Source of the DNA: Aquabacterium lacunae
Lineage (GTDB): Bacteria > Pseudomonadota > Gammaproteobacteria > Burkholderiales > Burkholderiaceae_C
Length of the DNA stretch: 64,000 bases
Assembly: GCF_004310865.1 (NCBI RefSeq)
Contig: NZ_SIXI01000001.1
Location: 799,913-863,912, forward strand
Direction of reading: 5' to 3'
Shown: positions 5,517 through 12,316 of the stretch, in pieces
Numbering within the stretch: position 1 is the first letter of the stretch
Layout: each line of letters starts with the position of its first letter
Translations under genes and position numbers: made by a program
Notes under the pieces: generated by a model
The model's database searches: none
What the model saw: the letters and a program-made list of their open reading frames with translations, nothing else
What the model was told of the DNA's origin: nothing

Positions 5517-5592
5517 GCGGGAATAGCTCAGTTGGTAGAGCGCAACCTTGCCAAGGTTGAGGTCGCGAGTTCGAGCCTCGTTTCCCGCTCCA
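5517..5592 (+). tRNA. tRNA-Gly (anticodon GCC)
   Basis: A complete cloverleaf can be drawn: acceptor GCGGGAA pairs with TTCCCGC, the D-arm contains AGCTCAGTTGGTAGAGC, the anticodon arm is CAACCTTGCCAAGGTTG with GCC at its centre, and the T-arm carries GAGTTCGAGCCTC. The CCA end is encoded (5590-5592). It reads GGC/GGT glycine codons. Confidence 0.97.
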
Positions 5593-5600
5593 GATCGCGA

Positions 5601-5631
5601 GCCCCTGTCAGTCACCTGACAGGGGCTTTTT
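5601..5631 (+). terminator. Intrinsic terminator after tRNA-Gly
   Basis: Perfect 11-bp stem GCCCCTGTCAG / CTGACAGGGGC with a TCAC loop, followed immediately by five T. It starts nine bases after the tRNA CCA end. Confidence 0.93.
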
Positions 5632-5671
5632 GCTGTCCGGCCCTGCCCTTCACTTCTGCCCTCCTGCGTCC

Positions 5672-6076
5672 ATGCGCTCCTCGATCCACATCGTCGACGT
5701 CGACCGCCTCGACACCTGGACCCGCTATCGCAACGGCCTGTGCGACACCTGCATGGCCAACTGCTGCACCATGCCACTGGAAGTGCGCCTGACCGACCTG
5801 GTGCGTCTGGGCGTGGTCGACGCCTTCGAAGCCGAGCATGAAGAAGAACGGCTGATCGCACGGCGCCTGCAAAAGGCCGGCGTGGTCGAGCGCTTCCACC
5901 AGAAGTCGGGCGTTTTCACGATGGCGCGTCGTGCGGATGGCGATTGCCGCTACCTCGACGCACACACCCGGCGGTGCACGGTGTATGCCCAGCGCCCAGA
6001 CACCTGCCGCAAACACCCGCAGGTGGGCCCGCGTCCAGGGCACTGCCCCTACGGTCGCCGCGACGCCACACGCTGA
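5672..6076 (+). CDS. YkgJ-family cysteine-cluster protein
   Basis: 134 residues from the ATG at 5672. The YkgJ family (CxxCxxxCC type, likely zinc or iron-sulfur binding) is indicated by GLCDTCMANCCTMPLEV near the start, then GDCRYLD, RRCTVYAQRPDTCRKHP and a last cysteine in GHCPYG. The spacing and the RPxxCR element fit the family; its biochemical role is unknown. No signal peptide, so cytoplasmic. It stands alone after the tRNA terminator, 174 bases before the HvfA-like operon, and is not clearly part of it. Confidence 0.8.
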   Translation: MRSSIHIVDVDRLDTWTRYRNGLCDTCMANCCTMPLEVRLTDLVRLGVVDAFEAEHEEERLIARRLQKAGVVERFHQKSGVFTMARRADGDCRYLDAHTRRCTVYAQRPDTCRKHPQVGPRPGHCPYGRRDATR

Positions 6077-6188
6077 CACATGGCTGGTTGCAGATTTCTG
6101 TCAGGATCTGCATGGCACCCGCGACAGAGACACCAGCAGGCCTGAGAGGCGGTTCACGCAGCAATGCATCCACCCCAACCGGCCTTGC

Positions 6189-6214
6189 GTAACTGTCACT
6201 GTGCACACCCCGTG
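6189..6214 (+). promoter_or_regulatory. Candidate ECF-sigma promoter of the hvf-like operon
   Basis: GTAACT at 6189-6194 and CGTG at 6211-6214 are separated by 16 bases, the architecture of many ECF promoters (AAC-containing -35, CGT-containing -10). It sits about 37 bases before the precursor ATG, whose ribosome site is AAAGGAC (6238-6244). The operon encodes its own ECF sigma factor, so autoregulation is plausible. This is pattern matching only. Confidence 0.4.
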
Positions 6215-6250
6215 CTCGATCTCAACGCTCCCTGAGCAAAGGACTTCGCC

Positions 6251-6514
6251 ATGAACATCAAGACCCTCGCCGCCCTGGCCGCCACCGTGATCGCCACTTC
6301 GGCCTACGCCGGCCACCATGAAGAAGCCAAGTGCGGCGCCGGCACCTGCGGCAAGAAGGAAATGACCGACAAGAAGAAGGCCAAGGCCGCCAAGGCAGGC
6401 GCTTCGGCCGCCTCGGGTGCCGAACACAGCTGCGGCAAGAAAGACGCAGCCTGTGGCAAGAAGGAAGCCAGCTGCGGCAAGAAGGACAAGGAAGCCTCCT
6501 GCGCCAAGAAGTGA
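6251..6514 (+). CDS. hvfA: HvfA/bufferin-like Cys-rich RiPP precursor, exported
   Basis: 87 residues: a Sec signal peptide (about 1-20, ending SAYA), then a Lys/Ala-rich region with six cysteines. Two lie early in AKCGAGTCGKK, the other four in SCGKKD, ACGKKE, SCGKKD and SCAKK. The AKCGAGTCG element recalls the EGKCG repeats of HvfA-type precursors, in which an MNIO enzyme converts cysteines to oxazolone/thioamide or thiooxazole groups that bind copper. An MNIO gene follows 19 bases downstream. The repeated (S/A)CGKK(D/E) units are less usual than EGKCG. Function as an extracytoplasmic copper-buffering peptide is inferred from operon and composition. Confidence 0.8.
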   Translation: MNIKTLAALAATVIATSAYAGHHEEAKCGAGTCGKKEMTDKKKAKAAKAGASAASGAEHSCGKKDAACGKKEASCGKKDKEASCAKK

Positions 6515-6533
6515 TCGGTCCGAGGGCTGCACC

Positions 6534-7328
6534 ATGCTGGGACTGGGCTTGCGCCGCGAGATGCTCGACTGGGACCTGTCATCCCTGCAGGCCCGGTTCT
6601 TCGAGGTCGTGCCCGAAAACTGGGTGCACCGCGACCGCAGCCCCCTGCTCGCCCTGATCGAGGGGGGGCGCCCCGTGCACCTGCACGGTGTGTCCATGAA
6701 CCTGGGCGGCACCTCACCGATCAGCCCGCAGTTCCTGCGTGAACTGCGCGGCCTGATCGACGACCTCAGCGGGCCACAGGGCGTGCCGCACTACTCCGAC
6801 CACCTGGCCGCCAGCGGAGATGCGCACCAGCTCTACGACCTGTTCCCCATCCCGTTCACGCCGGCCGAAGTGGCGCGCGTGGCGGGCCGCATCCAGCAGG
6901 TGCAAGACGGCCTGGGCCTGCGCATGGCCATCGAAAACAGCACCTGGTACAGCAACACCGGAACCCTGTCAGAGGCCGACTTCCTGGCGGCCGTGGCCGA
7001 GCGGGCCGACTGCGACATCCTGCTTGATCTCAACAACATCAGCGTGAACCGGAAGAACCACGGCACGCATGACCTGAGCGAGTTCATCGCCCGCATCGAC
7101 CTGAACCGGGTGCGCTACATGCACGTGGCCGGCCACGAATTCGACGCCCGCTTCGAGCTCTACATCGACACCCACAGCCAGGGCGTCGAGCCCGACACCG
7201 CCGCGGTGGCGCGGCAACTGCAGGCACTACATGGCCTGCCCATCCTGCTGGAGTGGGACAACGACCTGCCTGACATGGCCACACTCAACCGGGAGCTGGC
7301 ATGTCTGATGCCTTCTACGACTACGTGA
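6534..7328 (+). CDS. hvfB: MNIO (DUF692) family RiPP maturase, HvfB/BufB-like
   Basis: 264 residues from the ATG at 6534; the frame is open further upstream but that part overlaps the precursor gene. MNIO enzymes are multinuclear iron oxidases with a TIM-barrel fold that modify cysteines of peptide precursors. Candidate metal ligands are all present: HLHGVSMN, SDHLA, IENSTWYSN, DLNNISVN with NHGTHD, MHVAGHE, DTHSQGV and LLEWDND. The gene lies between the Cys-rich precursor and the short DUF2063-type partner, overlapping the latter by 28 bases. The start, with little spacing and a GAGG upstream, is reasonable but not certain. Confidence 0.9.
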   Translation: MLGLGLRREMLDWDLSSLQARFFEVVPENWVHRDRSPLLALIEGGRPVHLHGVSMNLGGTSPISPQFLRELRGLIDDLSGPQGVPHYSDHLAASGDAHQLYDLFPIPFTPAEVARVAGRIQQVQDGLGLRMAIENSTWYSNTGTLSEADFLAAVAERADCDILLDLNNISVNRKNHGTHDLSEFIARIDLNRVRYMHVAGHEFDARFELYIDTHSQGVEPDTAAVARQLQALHGLPILLEWDNDLPDMATLNRELACLMPSTTT

Positions 7329-7573
7329 GAGGCCGCAGCGACGTGGTGCCCGAGGGGCACAACGAACGCGGCTTGCAGGCCTACCGCCACCTGGTCTGGT
7401 TGGGCGCCAGCCAGATGGTCGAGTCGCATTTCCCGGAAGTTCGCCGGGAGCTGGGAGAAGACGCCTGGCGAGCCTTGATCGCGGCCTTCGTGCGCGACTC
7501 GCGCTGGCAATCTCATTATTACGGGGACCTCAAAGATGATTTCCTGGCTTTCCTGGCCGAACACACTGCTTGA
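7301..7573 (+). CDS. hvfC: Short HvfC-like (DUF2063 N-terminal) maturation partner
   Basis: Only 90 residues. The sequence (EGHNERGLQAYRHLVW, then VESHFPEVRRELGEDAWRAL and FVRDSRWQSHYYGDL) matches the N-terminal helical domain of the DUF2063/HvfC family, whose usual members are about 250 residues and present the precursor to the MNIO enzyme. The C-terminal domain is absent, and no frameshifted remnant follows because the DoxX gene starts inside this one (38-base overlap). It overlaps the maturase gene by 28 bases at its other end. A naturally minimised partner is the simplest reading. Confidence 0.78.
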   Translation: MSDAFYDYVRGRSDVVPEGHNERGLQAYRHLVWLGASQMVESHFPEVRRELGEDAWRALIAAFVRDSRWQSHYYGDLKDDFLAFLAEHTA

Positions 7574-8030
7574 GCGCGCCACGGCACCGCTGCACGACCT
7601 GGGCCTGCTGGTGCTGCGCCTTTGGGTGGGCCAGGAGTTTCTGCTGGCCGGCTGGACCAAGGTGGCCGCAGGGCCCCAGGCGCCTGAATGGTTCACGGGC
7701 CTGAGCTTTCCCTGGCCCCAAGCCCTGCTGCCCGCCGATGTCAGCTGGGTGCTGGCGGGGTATGGTGAGTTGCTGCTGTCACTCGCCTTGCTGCTGGGTC
7801 TGTACAGCCGGGTGGCGGCGCTGGGATTGCTTTACGTCACCTTCGTGGCCGTCTACACAGTGCATTTCGACCTGGGCTGGGCTGGCTGGAACCAGATCGA
7901 CAGCGAAGATGGCCTCGGCTTCAAAGTGCCCCTGATGCTGGCGCTGATGCTGCTGGCCGTGCTCACTCAGGGCGCTGGCCGGTATGCGGCCGACGCATGG
8001 CTGACGCGCCGCGAACACGACAGGACCTGA
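7536..8030 (+). CDS. hvfX: DoxX-family membrane protein, HvfX-like
   Basis: 164 residues with about four membrane helices. The early LRLWVGQEFLLAGWTKV segment is characteristic of DoxX proteins, as are the later helices around LAGYGELLLSLALLLGL and KVPLMLALMLLAVL. In HvfABCX operons the DoxX member is needed for the copper-related peptide pathway, although its biochemical job is unsettled. The start overlaps the hvfC-like gene by 38 bases, and one base separates its stop from the sigma-factor ATG, so the whole block is likely one transcript with coupled translation. Confidence 0.85.
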   Translation: MISWLSWPNTLLERATAPLHDLGLLVLRLWVGQEFLLAGWTKVAAGPQAPEWFTGLSFPWPQALLPADVSWVLAGYGELLLSLALLLGLYSRVAALGLLYVTFVAVYTVHFDLGWAGWNQIDSEDGLGFKVPLMLALMLLAVLTQGAGRYAADAWLTRREHDRT

Positions 8031-8031
8031 G

Positions 8032-8622
8032 ATGGACGCCGCACGCGACATGGACGCCTGGGCGCGCCGATGGCGAACCCCGATGCTGCGCTTTGCTCAG
8101 CTGCACATTCAGCCTCGGGAAGAAGCAGAGGACGCCGTCCAGGAAGCCCTGATGGCACTGGTCGCTCAACTGGCCAGCGGTGAACTGGCCGCAGGTGCCA
8201 GCGCGGGCGAAGCGCTCAAACCCTATCTGTTCGGCATCCTCAAGCACAAGATCACCGACCGCTTGCGCCACCGGTACCGCCACACTGCGCGCACCGAATC
8301 GATGGACGACGAGGCCTTCGAGGCCGAGCTGTTCGATGCTCGGGGCCACTGGCTGGATGGCGCCGCCCCCACGCGCTGGCATTGCCCCGAATCGACACTG
8401 GCCAACGAGCAGTTCTTTGCCGTGGTGGACGCCTGCATCCACCGGCTGCCCGCCAAGGCCGCCCGGGTGTTCAGCATGAAGGAACTGCTGGACTGCGACG
8501 CCGATGAGGTGTGCGCCACCCTGGGGCTGAGCAAGACCGATTACTGGCAATGCATGAGCCGGGCCCGCAAGCAGTTGCAGGTGTGCCTGACACAACGCTG
8601 GTTCGAAGGGGATCGCACATGA
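8032..8622 (+). CDS. ECF-type RNA polymerase sigma factor
   Basis: 196 residues. Region 2 is seen in MLRFAQLHIQPREEAEDAVQ through LKPYLFGILKHKITDRLRHR, and region 4 in HRLPAKAARVFSMKE, followed by DEVCATLGLSKTDYWQCMSRARKQL (helix-turn-helix). A linker of about 70 residues contains HWLDGAAPTRWHCPES. The gene lies one base after the DoxX gene and overlaps the next small gene by ATGA, the classic arrangement of a sigma factor with its anti-sigma factor. It probably controls the hvf-like operon, perhaps in response to copper or another metal; the inducer cannot be read from sequence. Confidence 0.87.
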   Translation: MDAARDMDAWARRWRTPMLRFAQLHIQPREEAEDAVQEALMALVAQLASGELAAGASAGEALKPYLFGILKHKITDRLRHRYRHTARTESMDDEAFEAELFDARGHWLDGAAPTRWHCPESTLANEQFFAVVDACIHRLPAKAARVFSMKELLDCDADEVCATLGLSKTDYWQCMSRARKQLQVCLTQRWFEGDRT

Positions 8623-8831
8623 TGAACTGCAAGACCTATGTGTTCAAGCTGAGTTCGGGGCAGCTGGACACAGCCAGCCTGGGCGAACGCCTGTGGGCCG
8701 CACAGCACCGCATGATGTGTGGCAAGTGCCGCGTCTTCACGGCCAATGACCAGCAGCTCACGGCCGTGATGCAACGTCACAAGAACGATCTGCTGAAGGC
8801 CCCGCCACCCGAGGAGCCGATCAACCGCTGA
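8619..8831 (+). CDS. Small Cys-containing putative anti-sigma factor
   Basis: 70 residues, starting MMNCKTYVFKLSSG, with RMMCGKCRVF in the middle. The Cys3 and CxxC arrangement with an intervening helix resembles a minimal zinc-binding anti-sigma (zf-HC2/ChrR-like) domain without a membrane anchor. Its start overlaps the sigma-factor stop (ATGA), which supports a regulatory pairing. Its 3' end overlaps the convergent GGDEF-like gene by 11 bases. Being soluble, it would sense a cytoplasmic signal, possibly metal or redox, directly through the cysteines. Function is inferred from position. Confidence 0.65.
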   Translation: MMNCKTYVFKLSSGQLDTASLGERLWAAQHRMMCGKCRVFTANDQQLTAVMQRHKNDLLKAPPPEEPINR

Positions 8832-10023
8832 CCTGGTTGCGCCCGGCCACCACGGCGCGAGCCAGGGCTCGCTGGGCCCGTGCGATCAGCTGCTGAGGCG
8901 CACTGGCCGGGTCGGAAGGCACCGCAGTGCCCACCCCGATGGTGATGGTGATCGGCCCCAGCGACTGCGACGCCCGGTGCCCCTGCGCGCGCACCAGGTC
9001 GAACAGGCGGTCGGCCGCGACCATGGCCTCGATGTTCTCCACATCGGGCAGCACGGCCGCGAAGGTCTGCGCATCGAAACGCACCATCAGGTCCTTGGGG
9101 CGCACGCTGCTGGACAGCAACTGGGCCACCTCTCGCACACACTGGTCCATCGCGTGGCGGCTGGCCACCGTGGCGCCACCACGCAACTGGTCCACCTCGA
9201 TCAACAGCAAAGACACGGCCTGCGGCTCTTCCTGGGTGGTCCGCCACACCTGCCTCAGGTAGTCGTCCAGGGCCTGCCGGTTGCCCAGCCCGGTGAGGGC
9301 ATCGGTCTGAGACAGCAGCACCAGTTCATCACGGGCCGCCTGCAACTCGTCGAGCAACTGGTCTTCCTTGAGGTTGAGCAGGAAGCGCTGGCGCTCCTGA
9401 CGCTCCAGCGCAAAGTTGCAGGTCAGGGTGGACACAGCACTGAACCCCAGCATGCACACCAGCGGCACCACCAGTGGATTGCCGTGCTGGTCACGCATGA
9501 AGGTGGCCACGATGTGCATGCCCAGTACCGCCAGCGAGAACATCAGGGCAAGCCGAAAACGCACCCGCTGCAACAGGTTGCAGTACAGCAGCACGACGAT
9601 GAGGCCCGCGCTGTACAGGTAAGCATGCACACTCTGACTGATCAGAGACAGGAACAGCAGCGAGGCTGCGACTGCCAGCGAGGTGCTGACCACCAGCCAG
9701 TCGGCGGTCCACGACCCCAGGCGCGCAATCAGCGGCTGGCTGAAAAAATGGCTCATGAGGATGAGTGCCACACCCACGGGCGTGAACACCCCCAGACGGA
9801 TCGTGACGCCCGTCCAGAACACATCGGGCAGCAGCATCCAGTCGACCAGCACAAACAGGTTGTAGACCAGCAGCGCCAGCGCCGCGGTGCGTATGGCATA
9901 GCCAATGCGCCTGGGCACCTCATGGTCGAGGTAATGGCGTTCGAGGTCGTCGTCAAAGCCCAGCCGCCAGCGGGGCTGCACCAGGGCCTGGTCGACCGTC
10001 TTGAGCAGTGCCGTCTGGTTCAT
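8821..10023 (-). CDS. Membrane protein with degenerate GGDEF domain (first of tandem pair)
   Basis: 400 residues: five or six membrane helices (about 45-205), a short coiled linker, then a GGDEF-fold domain beginning SQTDALTGLGNRQALDDYL. The catalytic signature is lost: the segment that should read GGDEF reads RFDAQTFAAVLP, so diguanylate cyclase activity is very unlikely. The N-terminal QPRWRLGFDDDLERHYLD is shared in style with the upstream gene (QPAWRLRFEPELEATFES), so the two are paralogues. The ATG overlaps the upstream stop (ATGA). A signalling or scaffolding role, perhaps through c-di-GMP or GTP binding, is possible. Confidence 0.8.
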   Translation of the reverse strand: MNQTALLKTVDQALVQPRWRLGFDDDLERHYLDHEVPRRIGYAIRTAALALLVYNLFVLVDWMLLPDVFWTGVTIRLGVFTPVGVALILMSHFFSQPLIARLGSWTADWLVVSTSLAVAASLLFLSLISQSVHAYLYSAGLIVVLLYCNLLQRVRFRLALMFSLAVLGMHIVATFMRDQHGNPLVVPLVCMLGFSAVSTLTCNFALERQERQRFLLNLKEDQLLDELQAARDELVLLSQTDALTGLGNRQALDDYLRQVWRTTQEEPQAVSLLLIEVDQLRGGATVASRHAMDQCVREVAQLLSSSVRPKDLMVRFDAQTFAAVLPDVENIEAMVAADRLFDLVRAQGHRASQSLGPITITIGVGTAVPSDPASAPQQLIARAQRALARAVVAGRNQVSG

Positions 10024-11339
10024 GGGGCCGGCCTTTCCTGCCAGGACACCTGCATCCGGTCACCGCCCTGTCGTTTGGCGCCGGCCAAGGCATGACGGGC
10101 CATGGCGATCAGGGCCTCGGGCGTGTCGAACTCGGACACCTGAGGCAGGCAGGACACCCCAAGGCTCAGGCGCACCGGGTGCCTCAGTGCTTGATCTTCA
10201 TCGAGGTGGAGCATCCGGCTCGCCGCCAGGATCCGTTCCCCCACCACGCGGGCCGGCTCGGCCCCGGTGTGACCGAGCACCACCATGAACTCGTCATCGT
10301 CGGTGCGGGCCACGAAGTCATTGGGCCGACGCAGGCTGGCCTGAATGGCACGGGCCACCGCCTGCAGGCAGGCATCGCCATGTCGGGCGCCGTGGGCTGC
10401 GTTGTGATCGGCCAGGTGATCCACATCGATCAGCAGCACCGACACGGGGGCTTCGTCAACCAGCAGGCGGGCCCAAGTGCGCTCGAAATGCTTCTGGAAC
10501 TGGCGCTTGTTGGGCAACTGGGTCAGGGCGTCCACCCGTGCCATCGCCTCGATCTGCTGGATCGTGTCCTGCAGGTCCTGGCGGATCATGCCCTGCTTGA
10601 GCGTGAGCAGGTGATTGCGCCGGCTCTCCTTTTCAAGGTGGAACAAGGCATACACCACCATCACCGCAGAAGACAGCAGGATCAGAAAGACCGGCAACCC
10701 GATGGTCAGACTCTGCTCGGGCGCAGGCAACAGCAACTGGGCCGCGAAGGTCAGGCCCACGGTGCCCACGATCGTCCACAGGCCGGGCACCAGCCGCATG
10801 CGAAGGAAGGCGGCGGTGTACATGATGTGCATGGCACTGGCCACCAGGTACTCCTGGGCCAGCACACTGCCACTGGCCAGAACCAGACAGAGGTGCAGCA
10901 GCACCGCACTGATCGTGCCGACAGCCTGCAGTTTCTGCATGGCCATGGACGACATGACCATCTGGGAGGCCAGGTGGGCAAACAAGGCGTAAGGTGCCAT
11001 GCCCACCAGGCGCACCATCACGGCCATCCCCCACACGTCGGGGATCATGAAACGGTCGGCCAGGATCAGCAGCGCCATGGCAGGCGGCAACCACTGCGAG
11101 GCCCGCACAAACACTGCGCGGCGCTCGCCCAAGGTGGCCGATTCGAAAGTGGCCTCCAGCTCAGGTTCGAAACGCAAGCGCCAGGCCGGTTGCTCCAGCG
11201 CGCGGTCGATGTGCGCCCAGGGCGTGGCCACGCGCAGCGCCTCACCGCCTTGCGACAGGGGCATGGAGGGGTCATCTCCCCGGCCGGAAGAGGCGGAGGA
11301 CTGGAGCACACGGTCCAGAGATCGGGCGGGCGGGTTCAT
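10020..11339 (-). CDS. Membrane protein with altered GGDEF domain (second of tandem pair)
   Basis: 439 residues if translation begins at the ATG at 11339 (MNPPARSLDR); the frame is open further upstream and the start is not firmly fixed. Membrane helices at about 85-235 precede a GGDEF-fold domain starting ARVDALTQLPNKRQF. The signature reads DDDEF in place of GGDEF (ARTDDDEFMVVL), so the two glycines needed for GTP binding are aspartates and cyclase activity is doubtful. The ILLIDVDHLADHNAAHG segment with the metal-binding Asp is retained. Upstream of and translationally coupled to its paralogue. Confidence 0.78.
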   Translation of the reverse strand: MNPPARSLDRVLQSSASSGRGDDPSMPLSQGGEALRVATPWAHIDRALEQPAWRLRFEPELEATFESATLGERRAVFVRASQWLPPAMALLILADRFMIPDVWGMAVMVRLVGMAPYALFAHLASQMVMSSMAMQKLQAVGTISAVLLHLCLVLASGSVLAQEYLVASAMHIMYTAAFLRMRLVPGLWTIVGTVGLTFAAQLLLPAPEQSLTIGLPVFLILLSSAVMVVYALFHLEKESRRNHLLTLKQGMIRQDLQDTIQQIEAMARVDALTQLPNKRQFQKHFERTWARLLVDEAPVSVLLIDVDHLADHNAAHGARHGDACLQAVARAIQASLRRPNDFVARTDDDEFMVVLGHTGAEPARVVGERILAASRMLHLDEDQALRHPVRLSLGVSCLPQVSEFDTPEALIAMARHALAGAKRQGGDRMQVSWQERPAP

Positions 11340-11515
11340 GGGTGCACGGCGGTGTCTTCCCGGATCTTGCAACAAGGCCGACGCCATGACCAGAAGGGAA
11401 GTCCCCGTGCTGCAGTGCAGCGAACAAGGTGGGAAACACCGTTGAATTGTGCCCAACCCGATTTCCCGTCCCTTGATATAAAACTGATTCATGGCGCAGT
11501 ACAGGAGTGTCCACA

Positions 11516-12316
11516 GTGAAACGAACCCTTCGCTTCCTGCAGGGCATGGTCTGCAGAACCTTGGTCTTGGCAGGTCTGGCTGCGGCAGCGGCCATGGCAC
11601 CATCGGCCTCAGTGGCAGCAGGCGCTCGCTCGGTCACGATCGGAGCTGAAGACGACTGGCCTCCTTATTCGTTCCGCCACACCGATGGCAGCCTGCAGGG
11701 CATCACGCCTCGCCTGGTGCAGGCTGCCCTGAAACTCAGGGGCATCGAAGCGCGCTACGAAGTGCTGCCGTTTTCCCGCTGCATGCGCGACGCCATGGTC
11801 GGCCGTCTGGCCGCCTGCTTCAACGCCACCATCACCGCGGAGAACAAAGCCCCCTATCAGTGGCACCCAACCCCGCTGTTTGTTGAAGAACTCGGCATCT
11901 TCGCCCGCAAGGGTGCGGGCGCCCGCGCAGCCTCGGCCCAGGACCTCGAAGGGCAGATCGTGGGCATCACCCGGGGTTACACCTACCCCAGTGAGATGGT
12001 CAAGAACCCGCGCATCCGCATCGTCGAGGCAGCCTCGGACTTGCAACTCATGAAGCTGCTCCAGGCCGGACGGCTGCAGTTTGCGCTGCTCAACACCTTG
12101 CCGGCCTCCTGGCGCATCCAGCAGGAAGCCAGTTTGAAGGGGCAGATCGAGCGGGTGGGCGCCGTCAGTCAGGACGGGTTCTGGCTGGCGGTGTCACGCA
12201 AGCACCCACAGGGCAACGAACTCGTGCGCGAGATCGAAGCCGGGCTGCAACAGCTCAAGGCCAGTGGCGAGTACGACCGCCTGATGCAGAAGGCCCGACA
12301 GGAGCTGATCCGATGA
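11516..12316 (+). CDS. Periplasmic solute-binding protein (SBP family 3), coupled to hybrid kinase
   Basis: 266 residues from the GTG at 11516, chosen because AGGAG lies eight bases upstream; an in-frame GTG at 11507 is too close to that site. A signal peptide ends near SVAAGA. The binding-protein fold is shown by [38 protein letters not shown] and [12 protein letters not shown]. No ABC permease or ATPase is nearby. Instead the stop overlaps the ATG of the hybrid kinase (ATGA), so the protein probably delivers a ligand signal to that kinase or samples an amino-acid-like ligand for it. Confidence 0.82.

Follow-up and report, generated by a model that had tools for sequence, protein, structure and literature searches.

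A DUF2063-only partner protein in a compact MNIO operon of Aquabacterium lacunae, a putative copper-peptide system

Operon content and conservation

We analyzed a 64,000-nt stretch of Aquabacterium lacunae DNA, here called the window (contig NZ_SIXI01000001.1 of GCF_004310865.1, positions 799,913 to 863,912, forward strand). At window positions 6251-8831, six open reading frames (ORFs), all on the plus strand, encode a cysteine-rich precursor peptide, an MNIO maturase, a partner protein, a DoxX membrane protein, an extracytoplasmic function (ECF) sigma factor and an anti-sigma factor (Table 1). An earlier sequence-only reading had proposed six tightly packed genes, and all six ORFs were confirmed, with gaps of 19 nt (precursor/MNIO) and 1 nt (DoxX/sigma) and overlaps of 28 nt (MNIO/partner), 38 nt (partner/DoxX) and 4 nt (sigma/anti-sigma). 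The operon belongs to a compact group within the MNIO copper-peptide systems, which include HvfABCX, bufferins and captophorins; by analogy to this family, copper would be the metal. Its new element and strongest novelty is the missing RRE half of the partner, the half proposed to bind the peptide.

To place the operon among its relatives, one genome per species was scanned with the window MNIO, which returned 52 loci. Fifty of these share 57-71% MNIO identity with the window, and the other two, at 34-35%, are outgroups. The 50 loci belong mostly to Burkholderiales and other Betaproteobacteria (among them Comamonas, Aquabacterium, Bordetella, Methylophilus, Thauera, Azonexus and a Neisseriaceae). 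A few are Gammaproteobacteria, and others carry only the label Proteobacteria. They contain a relative of the precursor in 46 cases, of the partner in 50, of DoxX in 43 and of the sigma and anti-sigma factors in 29 each, gene counts that are affected by some loci stopping at contig ends. Because the cassette genes recur across 50 related loci, the operon is not a chance arrangement.

A partner protein without its RRE half

The partner matches the Pfam family DUF2063 with 58.1 bits over positions 4-83 of 83. On the 237-position HvfC model it covers only positions 3-89, and the C-terminal RRE domain is missing: the ORF stops at 90 aa, where that domain should start, and overlaps doxX. It had been described as a short partner, which its length bears out but which understates the case, as the whole RRE half is lacking. 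The same holds for the relatives, with an intact partner of 66-101 aa in 49 of 50 and an RRE half in none of the 49. No second DUF2063 match was found in the window genome.

Antoine et al. (PMC12452194) report that precursors exported by Sec are served by PME-type 1 partners, a group with a narrow size range consistent with the full DUF2063-RRE length. From this rule, as given there, the DUF2063-only partner of the clade departs. The short PME-type 2 partners of the same report are alike in having a DUF2063-like domain, which stands by itself or next to a truncated RRE. They differ in lacking the Pfam DUF2063 signature and in serving precursors without signal peptides, whereas the window partner carries the signature and its precursor a likely Sec signal.

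Table 1 Features of the operon (positions in the window)
Feature	Position	Strand	Evidence
Predicted promoter for the operon's own ECF sigma, TGTCAGG-N16-CGAC (-35 and -10 boxes)	6099..6125	+	Sole match in 64 kb; motif in relatives
Precursor peptide, 87 aa, 6 Cys, likely Sec signal	6251..6514	+	ORF; relatives; no Pfam family
MNIO maturase (PF05114), 264 aa	6534..7328	+	Pfam 231.7 bits; 3bww E 4.5e-42; tree; residues
RRE-less partner, DUF2063 domain only, 90 aa	7301..7573	+	Pfam and NCBIfam profiles; relatives
DoxX/HvfX membrane protein, 164 aa	7536..8030	+	DoxX 61.7 bits; HvfX 84.8 bits
ECF sigma factor (TIGR02943 family), 196 aa	8032..8622	+	Sigma70 r2/r4; TIGR02943 171.8 bits
Soluble ZAS-type anti-sigma, 70 aa, Cys4 His30 Cys34 Cys37	8619..8831	+	Ligand spacing; antisigmaE 29.4 bits

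The maturase forms a distinct clade

The maturase belongs to PF05114 (MbnB_TglH_ChrH; 231.7 bits, cut-off 25) and the DoxX protein exceeds the NCBIfam HvfX threshold (84.8 bits, cut-off 80). The MNIO falls below the NCBIfam thresholds for HvfB (224.9 versus 360 bits) and BufB (196.1 versus 310), and the partner below that for HvfC (57.7 versus 142), all of which counts against plain membership; because of these missed cut-offs, we regard the operon as a diverged relative. The earlier description as an HvfABCX/bufferin-like MNIO operon is supported.

A family tree, suggested with the sequence-only reading, was built for the MNIO from 77 of 82 rows. Near-copies L020, L030, L035, L047 and L010 were dropped, L050 was left out with its MNIO truncated at a contig end, and sampling was of close relatives. 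The MNIOs of the comparison loci L054-L083 were located with a hidden Markov model and labeled Buf1, Buf2 or EGKCG by eye from their precursors; L054 and L076, among the 30 long-partner loci, gave no downstream ORF. Forty-five short-partner MNIOs, window included, form one clade (support 100/99), which joins the EGKCG rows (99/99) apart from the Buf1- and Buf2-associated enzymes. The MNIO thus lies on the EGKCG (HvfB) side, as a distinct clade and not among the EGKCG rows themselves.

Residue comparisons separate the groups further. In FonB, Phe250 was modeled at the substrate (PMC13097082). The equivalent residue is Asn243 in the window, and Asn in 48 and His in two of 50 rows (window included). 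It is Phe in all five EGKCG rows, which comprise four loci and 3BWW, the latter placed by assumption, Asp in 8/9 Buf2 rows and Ala or Thr in 8/10 Buf1 rows, one of which has Asn. In the tree, the window MNIO lies apart from the nine Buf2-labeled rows, and it is without the Asp found in eight of them. Across all four groups, 41 residues are invariant, including D242, which aligns with the Asp preceding the Phe position (FonB D249).

Precursor repeats

The six cysteines of the window precursor stand in the contexts KCGAG, TCGKK, SCGKK, ACGKK, SCGKK and SCAKK, behind a Sec-type signal peptide with cleavage, judged by eye, near SAYA-G. The precursor matched no Pfam family at E values up to 1, DUF2282 included, and no NCBIfam model above chance. 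Repeats of the form (S/A)CGKK(D/E) had been noted in place of EGKCG. CGKK repeats are indeed present in the window, and EGKCG is absent from all 47 precursors examined (window included), but CGKK is only the window's flavor of a family repeat (S/A/G)C(S/G/A)KK, the commonest version of which is SCSKK (81 of 304 cysteines). In these counts, which leave out the first 20 residues, Cys is followed by Ser, Gly or Ala at 295 of 304 positions and has Lys at +2 in 249. A C[GS]AG[ST]C motif is present in 40 of 46 precursors. FonBC is reported to strongly prefer a small residue after Cys, with one Cys-Tyr variant modified once (PMC13097082); given this preference, the precursor motif would be compatible with formation of 5-thiooxazole, the modification that defines the copper-binding captophorins and removes 4 Da per Cys.

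Similar repeats were sought in the literature. The published CxxxxC precursor family has a CxxxxC motif and, in 54% of its biosynthetic gene clusters (BGCs), a Lactamase_B_2 gene (PMC12452194). A crude H.H.DH scan for Lactamase_B_2 matched ORFs in eight of the 50 loci, but on inspection none of these was convincing; the same scan gave one convincing ORF in outgroup L053. In running text, no published CGKK precursor with an MNIO was found, and none with CSKK among the 20 of 50 matching papers that were listed; sequences drawn in figures lay outside this search, as did Antoine Table S2 and Gadgil Data set S2, supplementary tables that may contain the precursors unnamed.

Regulation by a sigma/anti-sigma pair

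The sigma factor passes the TIGR02943 threshold (171.8 bits, cut-off 162.2). The anti-sigma factor stays below that of NCBIfam antisigmaE (29.4 versus 50 bits) and had no match among Protein Data Bank (PDB) sequences. Its ligands Cys4, His30, Cys34 and Cys37 have the same numbering as the zinc ligands reported for Neisseria MseR (PMC2893595), and the pattern C-x22-28-H-x3-C-x2-C is kept in 29/29 relatives. Together with a sigma-linked promoter motif, these zinc-binding anti-sigma (ZAS) positions uphold the earlier assignment of an own ECF sigma factor with a soluble, Cys-containing anti-sigma factor. The pair is not new in kind, since Neisseria and Haemophilus have regulators of this type.

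The motif, TGTCAGG-N15/16-CGAC, lies upstream of the precursor in all 26 relatives with sigma (blastp score >80, same strand; L008 and L045 were counted as lacking it although they end at contig ends) when 130 nt were searched. It occurs in none of seven loci with a divergent other ECF factor, in 7/13 without an adjacent sigma and in 2/9400 dinucleotide shuffles. In the seven loci with the other factor, a relative of NrsF adjoins the sigma gene in every case (Pfam NrsF confirmed in the two tested), and five carry TGTAACC-N16-CGTA instead; the promoter motif thus changes with the regulator. Five loci (L005, L006, L007, L036 and L044, including Aquabacterium parvum) keep TGTCAGG...CGAC and have no such sigma within the locus, where it presumably acts in trans.

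As the pattern was written from the same upstream regions, its count is descriptive only. Two observations check it independently: loci with a different regulator lack it, and it resembles the Neisseria sigma-E consensus, used here as GTMAGBWTT, 12-13 nt, CGTCTAAH. Over 27 promoters (window included), the -35 box has no mismatch of nine in eight cases, one in 17 and two in two, and the spacer is 12-13 nt in 27/27. The window promoter matches at 8/9 positions of the -35 box and 4/8 of the -10 box, with a spacer of 13. About 11-15 nt before TGTCAGG, the AT fraction of the 27 promoters averages 0.85, reminiscent of the Neisseria UP element. Further scans found no Rfam match at window positions 5900-6600 and no sigma-70 promoter at 5600-8950.

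Several regulatory features weigh against the pathway proposed below. The window motif ends 125 nt before the ATG, compared with 45-77 nt in the 26 relatives, and was counted within 160 nt because it falls outside the 130 nt searched for the others; the window also lacks the AT-rich tract (6054-6098) seen in relatives. The -10 boxes deviate from the Neisseria consensus at two to five of eight positions, with CGAC replacing CGTC in 27/27. Related sigmas (31-41% identity) are found near eight of the 30 long-partner loci, EGKCG included, and the sigma therefore does not distinguish the short-partner clade.

The window leader is 48-80 nt longer than that of other loci. In relatives, the last 75 nt upstream of the precursor contain an inverted repeat (often GTGCAC...GTGCAC, with different arms in some loci), whose end lies 15-36 nt from the ATG. 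A stem score of at least 10 was reached in 22/47 loci and in 20/27 with sigma, compared with a mean of 5.3/47 and a maximum of 12 in 100 single-base shuffles; the score of the window itself is 0. The repeat is a possible leader hairpin or operator.

Other genes behind the motif

The window genome contains nine motif copies and none of the reversed pattern. One of them is found 41 nt upstream of msrP (MsrP 479 bits; methionine-sulfoxide repair). A further copy, 54 nt from its gene, precedes a thioredoxin-like protein that has a likely signal peptide and is itself followed by a DsbD-like membrane protein (L089, G000:C33:438076). A homologous thioredoxin-like/DsbD-like pair (48% and 40% identity) adjoins the sigma-NrsF pair in Thauera (L011 1185-2537) and was not seen beside other loci at the cut-off used; the pair may be a functional partner. 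In Allofranklinella and Vandammella, the motif precedes a thioredoxin-MsrAB-type gene, with NCBIfam MsrAB confirmed for Allofranklinella, and neither genome gave an MsrP match.

A wider motif-defined regulon was considered and rejected. Sixteen relatives showed no excess beyond the operon copy, with 53 matches, 16 operon promoters among them, compared with 38 for the control; the genes behind 30 of these 53 matches, and behind a few more, were inspected. The msrP copy, moreover, is found in the window genome alone among 15 sigma-bearing genomes with MsrP, the best matches in the other 14 having two to four mismatches, no better than shuffles. As it is not conserved in other genomes, we keep the msrP target as a prediction for the window genome only.

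Genomic surroundings and locus variants

Upstream of the operon lie a tRNA-Gly gene (5517-5592) and a terminator-like hairpin (5600-5627), followed directly before the promoter by a CxxCxxCC-family cysteine-cluster protein on the same strand (5672-6076). Two adjacent proteins with GGDEF-like C-termini, recognized by eye, are encoded convergently at 8821-11603 on the minus strand. Among the relatives, the partner, DoxX and sigma genes of Pelistega indica (L048 4744-6050) are each split over two frames, from decay or sequencing error. In four Comamonas loci, precursor and MNIO are separated by 443-459 nt, and in the two of these that were inspected, L022 (3596-3961) and L034 (3600-3941), a small ORF with an APVGNGSDYP motif occupies this place.

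Comparison to characterized systems

Among the closest known systems is that of Neisseria, where sigma-E and MseR were reported to share an operon with the DUF2063 gene NGO1945 and a DoxX-like gene (PMC2893595). This cluster, NMB2140-2145 / NGO1948-1943 (the gonophorin ngo BGC with MseR), which we compared on the basis of 3DEE and published text, contains further genes of formerly unknown function and shares with the window the DoxX-like gene, the MNIO partner, the ECF sigma, the ZAS anti-sigma with its zinc-ligand numbering, a similar -35 box and spacing, and Msr repair in the regulon. It differs in its partner (NGO1945, 249 aa, DUF2063 plus RRE), its EGKCG precursor and a DoxX-like gene in first position. 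H. influenzae hvfABCX (oxazolin) likewise has an MNIO, a DUF2063 partner, DoxX/HvfX, an exported Cys-repeat precursor, an ECF sigma and a 67-aa cytoplasmic anti-sigma, but with EGKCG repeats, an RRE-bearing HvfC and the sigma gene elsewhere, near msrAB; its RpoE2/HrsE was reported to drive the unlinked doxX/DUF2063 operon (PMC7907618). In the Bufferin 1/gig operons of C. vibrioides and C. metallidurans, where gigPABT adjoins rpoQ-rsqA (PMC10304878), the precursor-MNIO-DUF2063-DoxX core and an adjacent ECF sigma recur, and seven relatives of the window cassette resemble them in carrying a sigma with NrsF. They differ in a DUF2282 precursor, a membrane-type anti-sigma (NrsF, predicted for RsqA) and a full-length partner.

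Proposed pathway and alternatives

We consider it probable that the operon makes an exported Cys-rich peptide whose cysteines the MNIO iron enzyme oxidizes, with a DUF2063-only partner, to likely copper-binding thiooxazoles, from a promoter likely read by its own sigma. Stress, in which oxidants or metals attack the zinc thiolate site, would free the sigma factor and thereby turn on synthesis of the precursor. In the cytoplasm, the MNIO and its mini-partner would modify up to six cysteines and recognize the signal peptide or repeats with no RRE involved. After export by Sec, the product would hold Cu(I) in the periplasm, with DoxX assisting at the membrane and MsrP, behind a second motif copy, repairing oxidized periplasmic proteins. 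We propose RRE-free Cys modification, likely to 5-thiooxazole, of a Sec-exported peptide.

Some observations weigh against this picture. The MNIO clade sits on a long stem (2.2), and treekit raised a warning about the joining of long branches. Structure comparison of the partner gave a Foldseek E value of only 0.93 for 3dee, and small helical models easily reach middling structural Z scores. Recognition through the signal peptide has been suggested for bufferin and oxazolin (PMC12452194, PMC13419390). A specially conserved leader was considered here and is unsupported, because the signal peptides resemble one another only as much as those of Buf2: within the first 20 residues, pairwise identity averages 0.565 for 46 precursors, on a par with 0.562 for seven Buf2 precursors (0.432 for nine Buf1 precursors).

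It is somewhat unlikely that the operon is an ordinary one of the captophorin/oxazolin type, in which the RRE half is dispensable for short repeat substrates, product and function are those of HvfA and only the sequence has drifted. Such an operon would have the same gene set, with HvfX above its cut-off, and would accord with an MNIO clade that joins the EGKCG rows and with the 41 residues, D242 (FonB D249) included, shared by four groups. It fits poorly with the Asn that replaces the EGKCG Phe at the substrate-contact position, with 47 precursors devoid of EGKCG, with the missed HvfB and HvfC cut-offs and with 49 intact partners that all lack the RRE half. We regard it as distinctly improbable that maturation is not truly RRE-free, the RRE function being supplied in trans or having moved into the MNIO or DoxX. 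HvfC was reported to be needed for the cofactor state and, by deduction, for substrate binding (2026 preprint on HvfBC, PMC13419390), and one PqqD-family (RRE-like) stretch does exist elsewhere in the genome, but inside a 727-aa frame on another contig. The MNIO, moreover, is not enlarged, the genome has only the one DUF2063 match, and the six window genes are contiguous with none between, although no systematic search was made for extra genes that recur around the operons of the relatives.

The signal could also be oxidants (HOCl, thiol stress) in place of copper, with the Lys/Cys-rich peptide, modified or not, serving to buffer redox changes or as a sink for oxidants. Links to HOCl and Msr repair are known for the closest studied regulators, namely H. 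influenzae RpoE2 (PMC7907618) and Neisseria sigma-E/msrAB (PMC2893595); RpoE2 responds to HOCl and H2O2, with copper not shown in that study, and oxidants left Neisseria sigma-E expression unchanged (PMC2893595). In the window genome, msrP and the exported thioredoxin/DsbD-like pair stand behind the motif. Yet copper is bound by the products of bufferin, oxazolin and fontiphorin systems, a sigma with NrsF, the pair reported in Buf1 operons, serves seven loci of this cassette, and Caulobacter sigma-F has been tied to heavy-metal stress (PMC3511200), which makes an oxidant response unlikely.

Beyond the window, RRE-free modification may extend to the whole MNIO clade, which would mature Sec-exported copper peptides without any RRE: the lone DUF2063 domain would switch the iron cluster active, while the enzyme-DUF2063 pair would read the signal peptide and CxxxxC...C(S/G/A)KK repeats directly. 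We hold this wider proposal to be evenly balanced. If true, it would separate cofactor tuning from leader binding, jobs that are fused in other MNIO partners, and the conserved DUF2063-only partner offers a natural test of what the two halves of the partner do. The same cassette, accompanied by sigma/ZAS in some genomes and sigma/NrsF in others, each with its own motif, likewise provides a natural experiment on the acquisition of sensors by copper-peptide operons.

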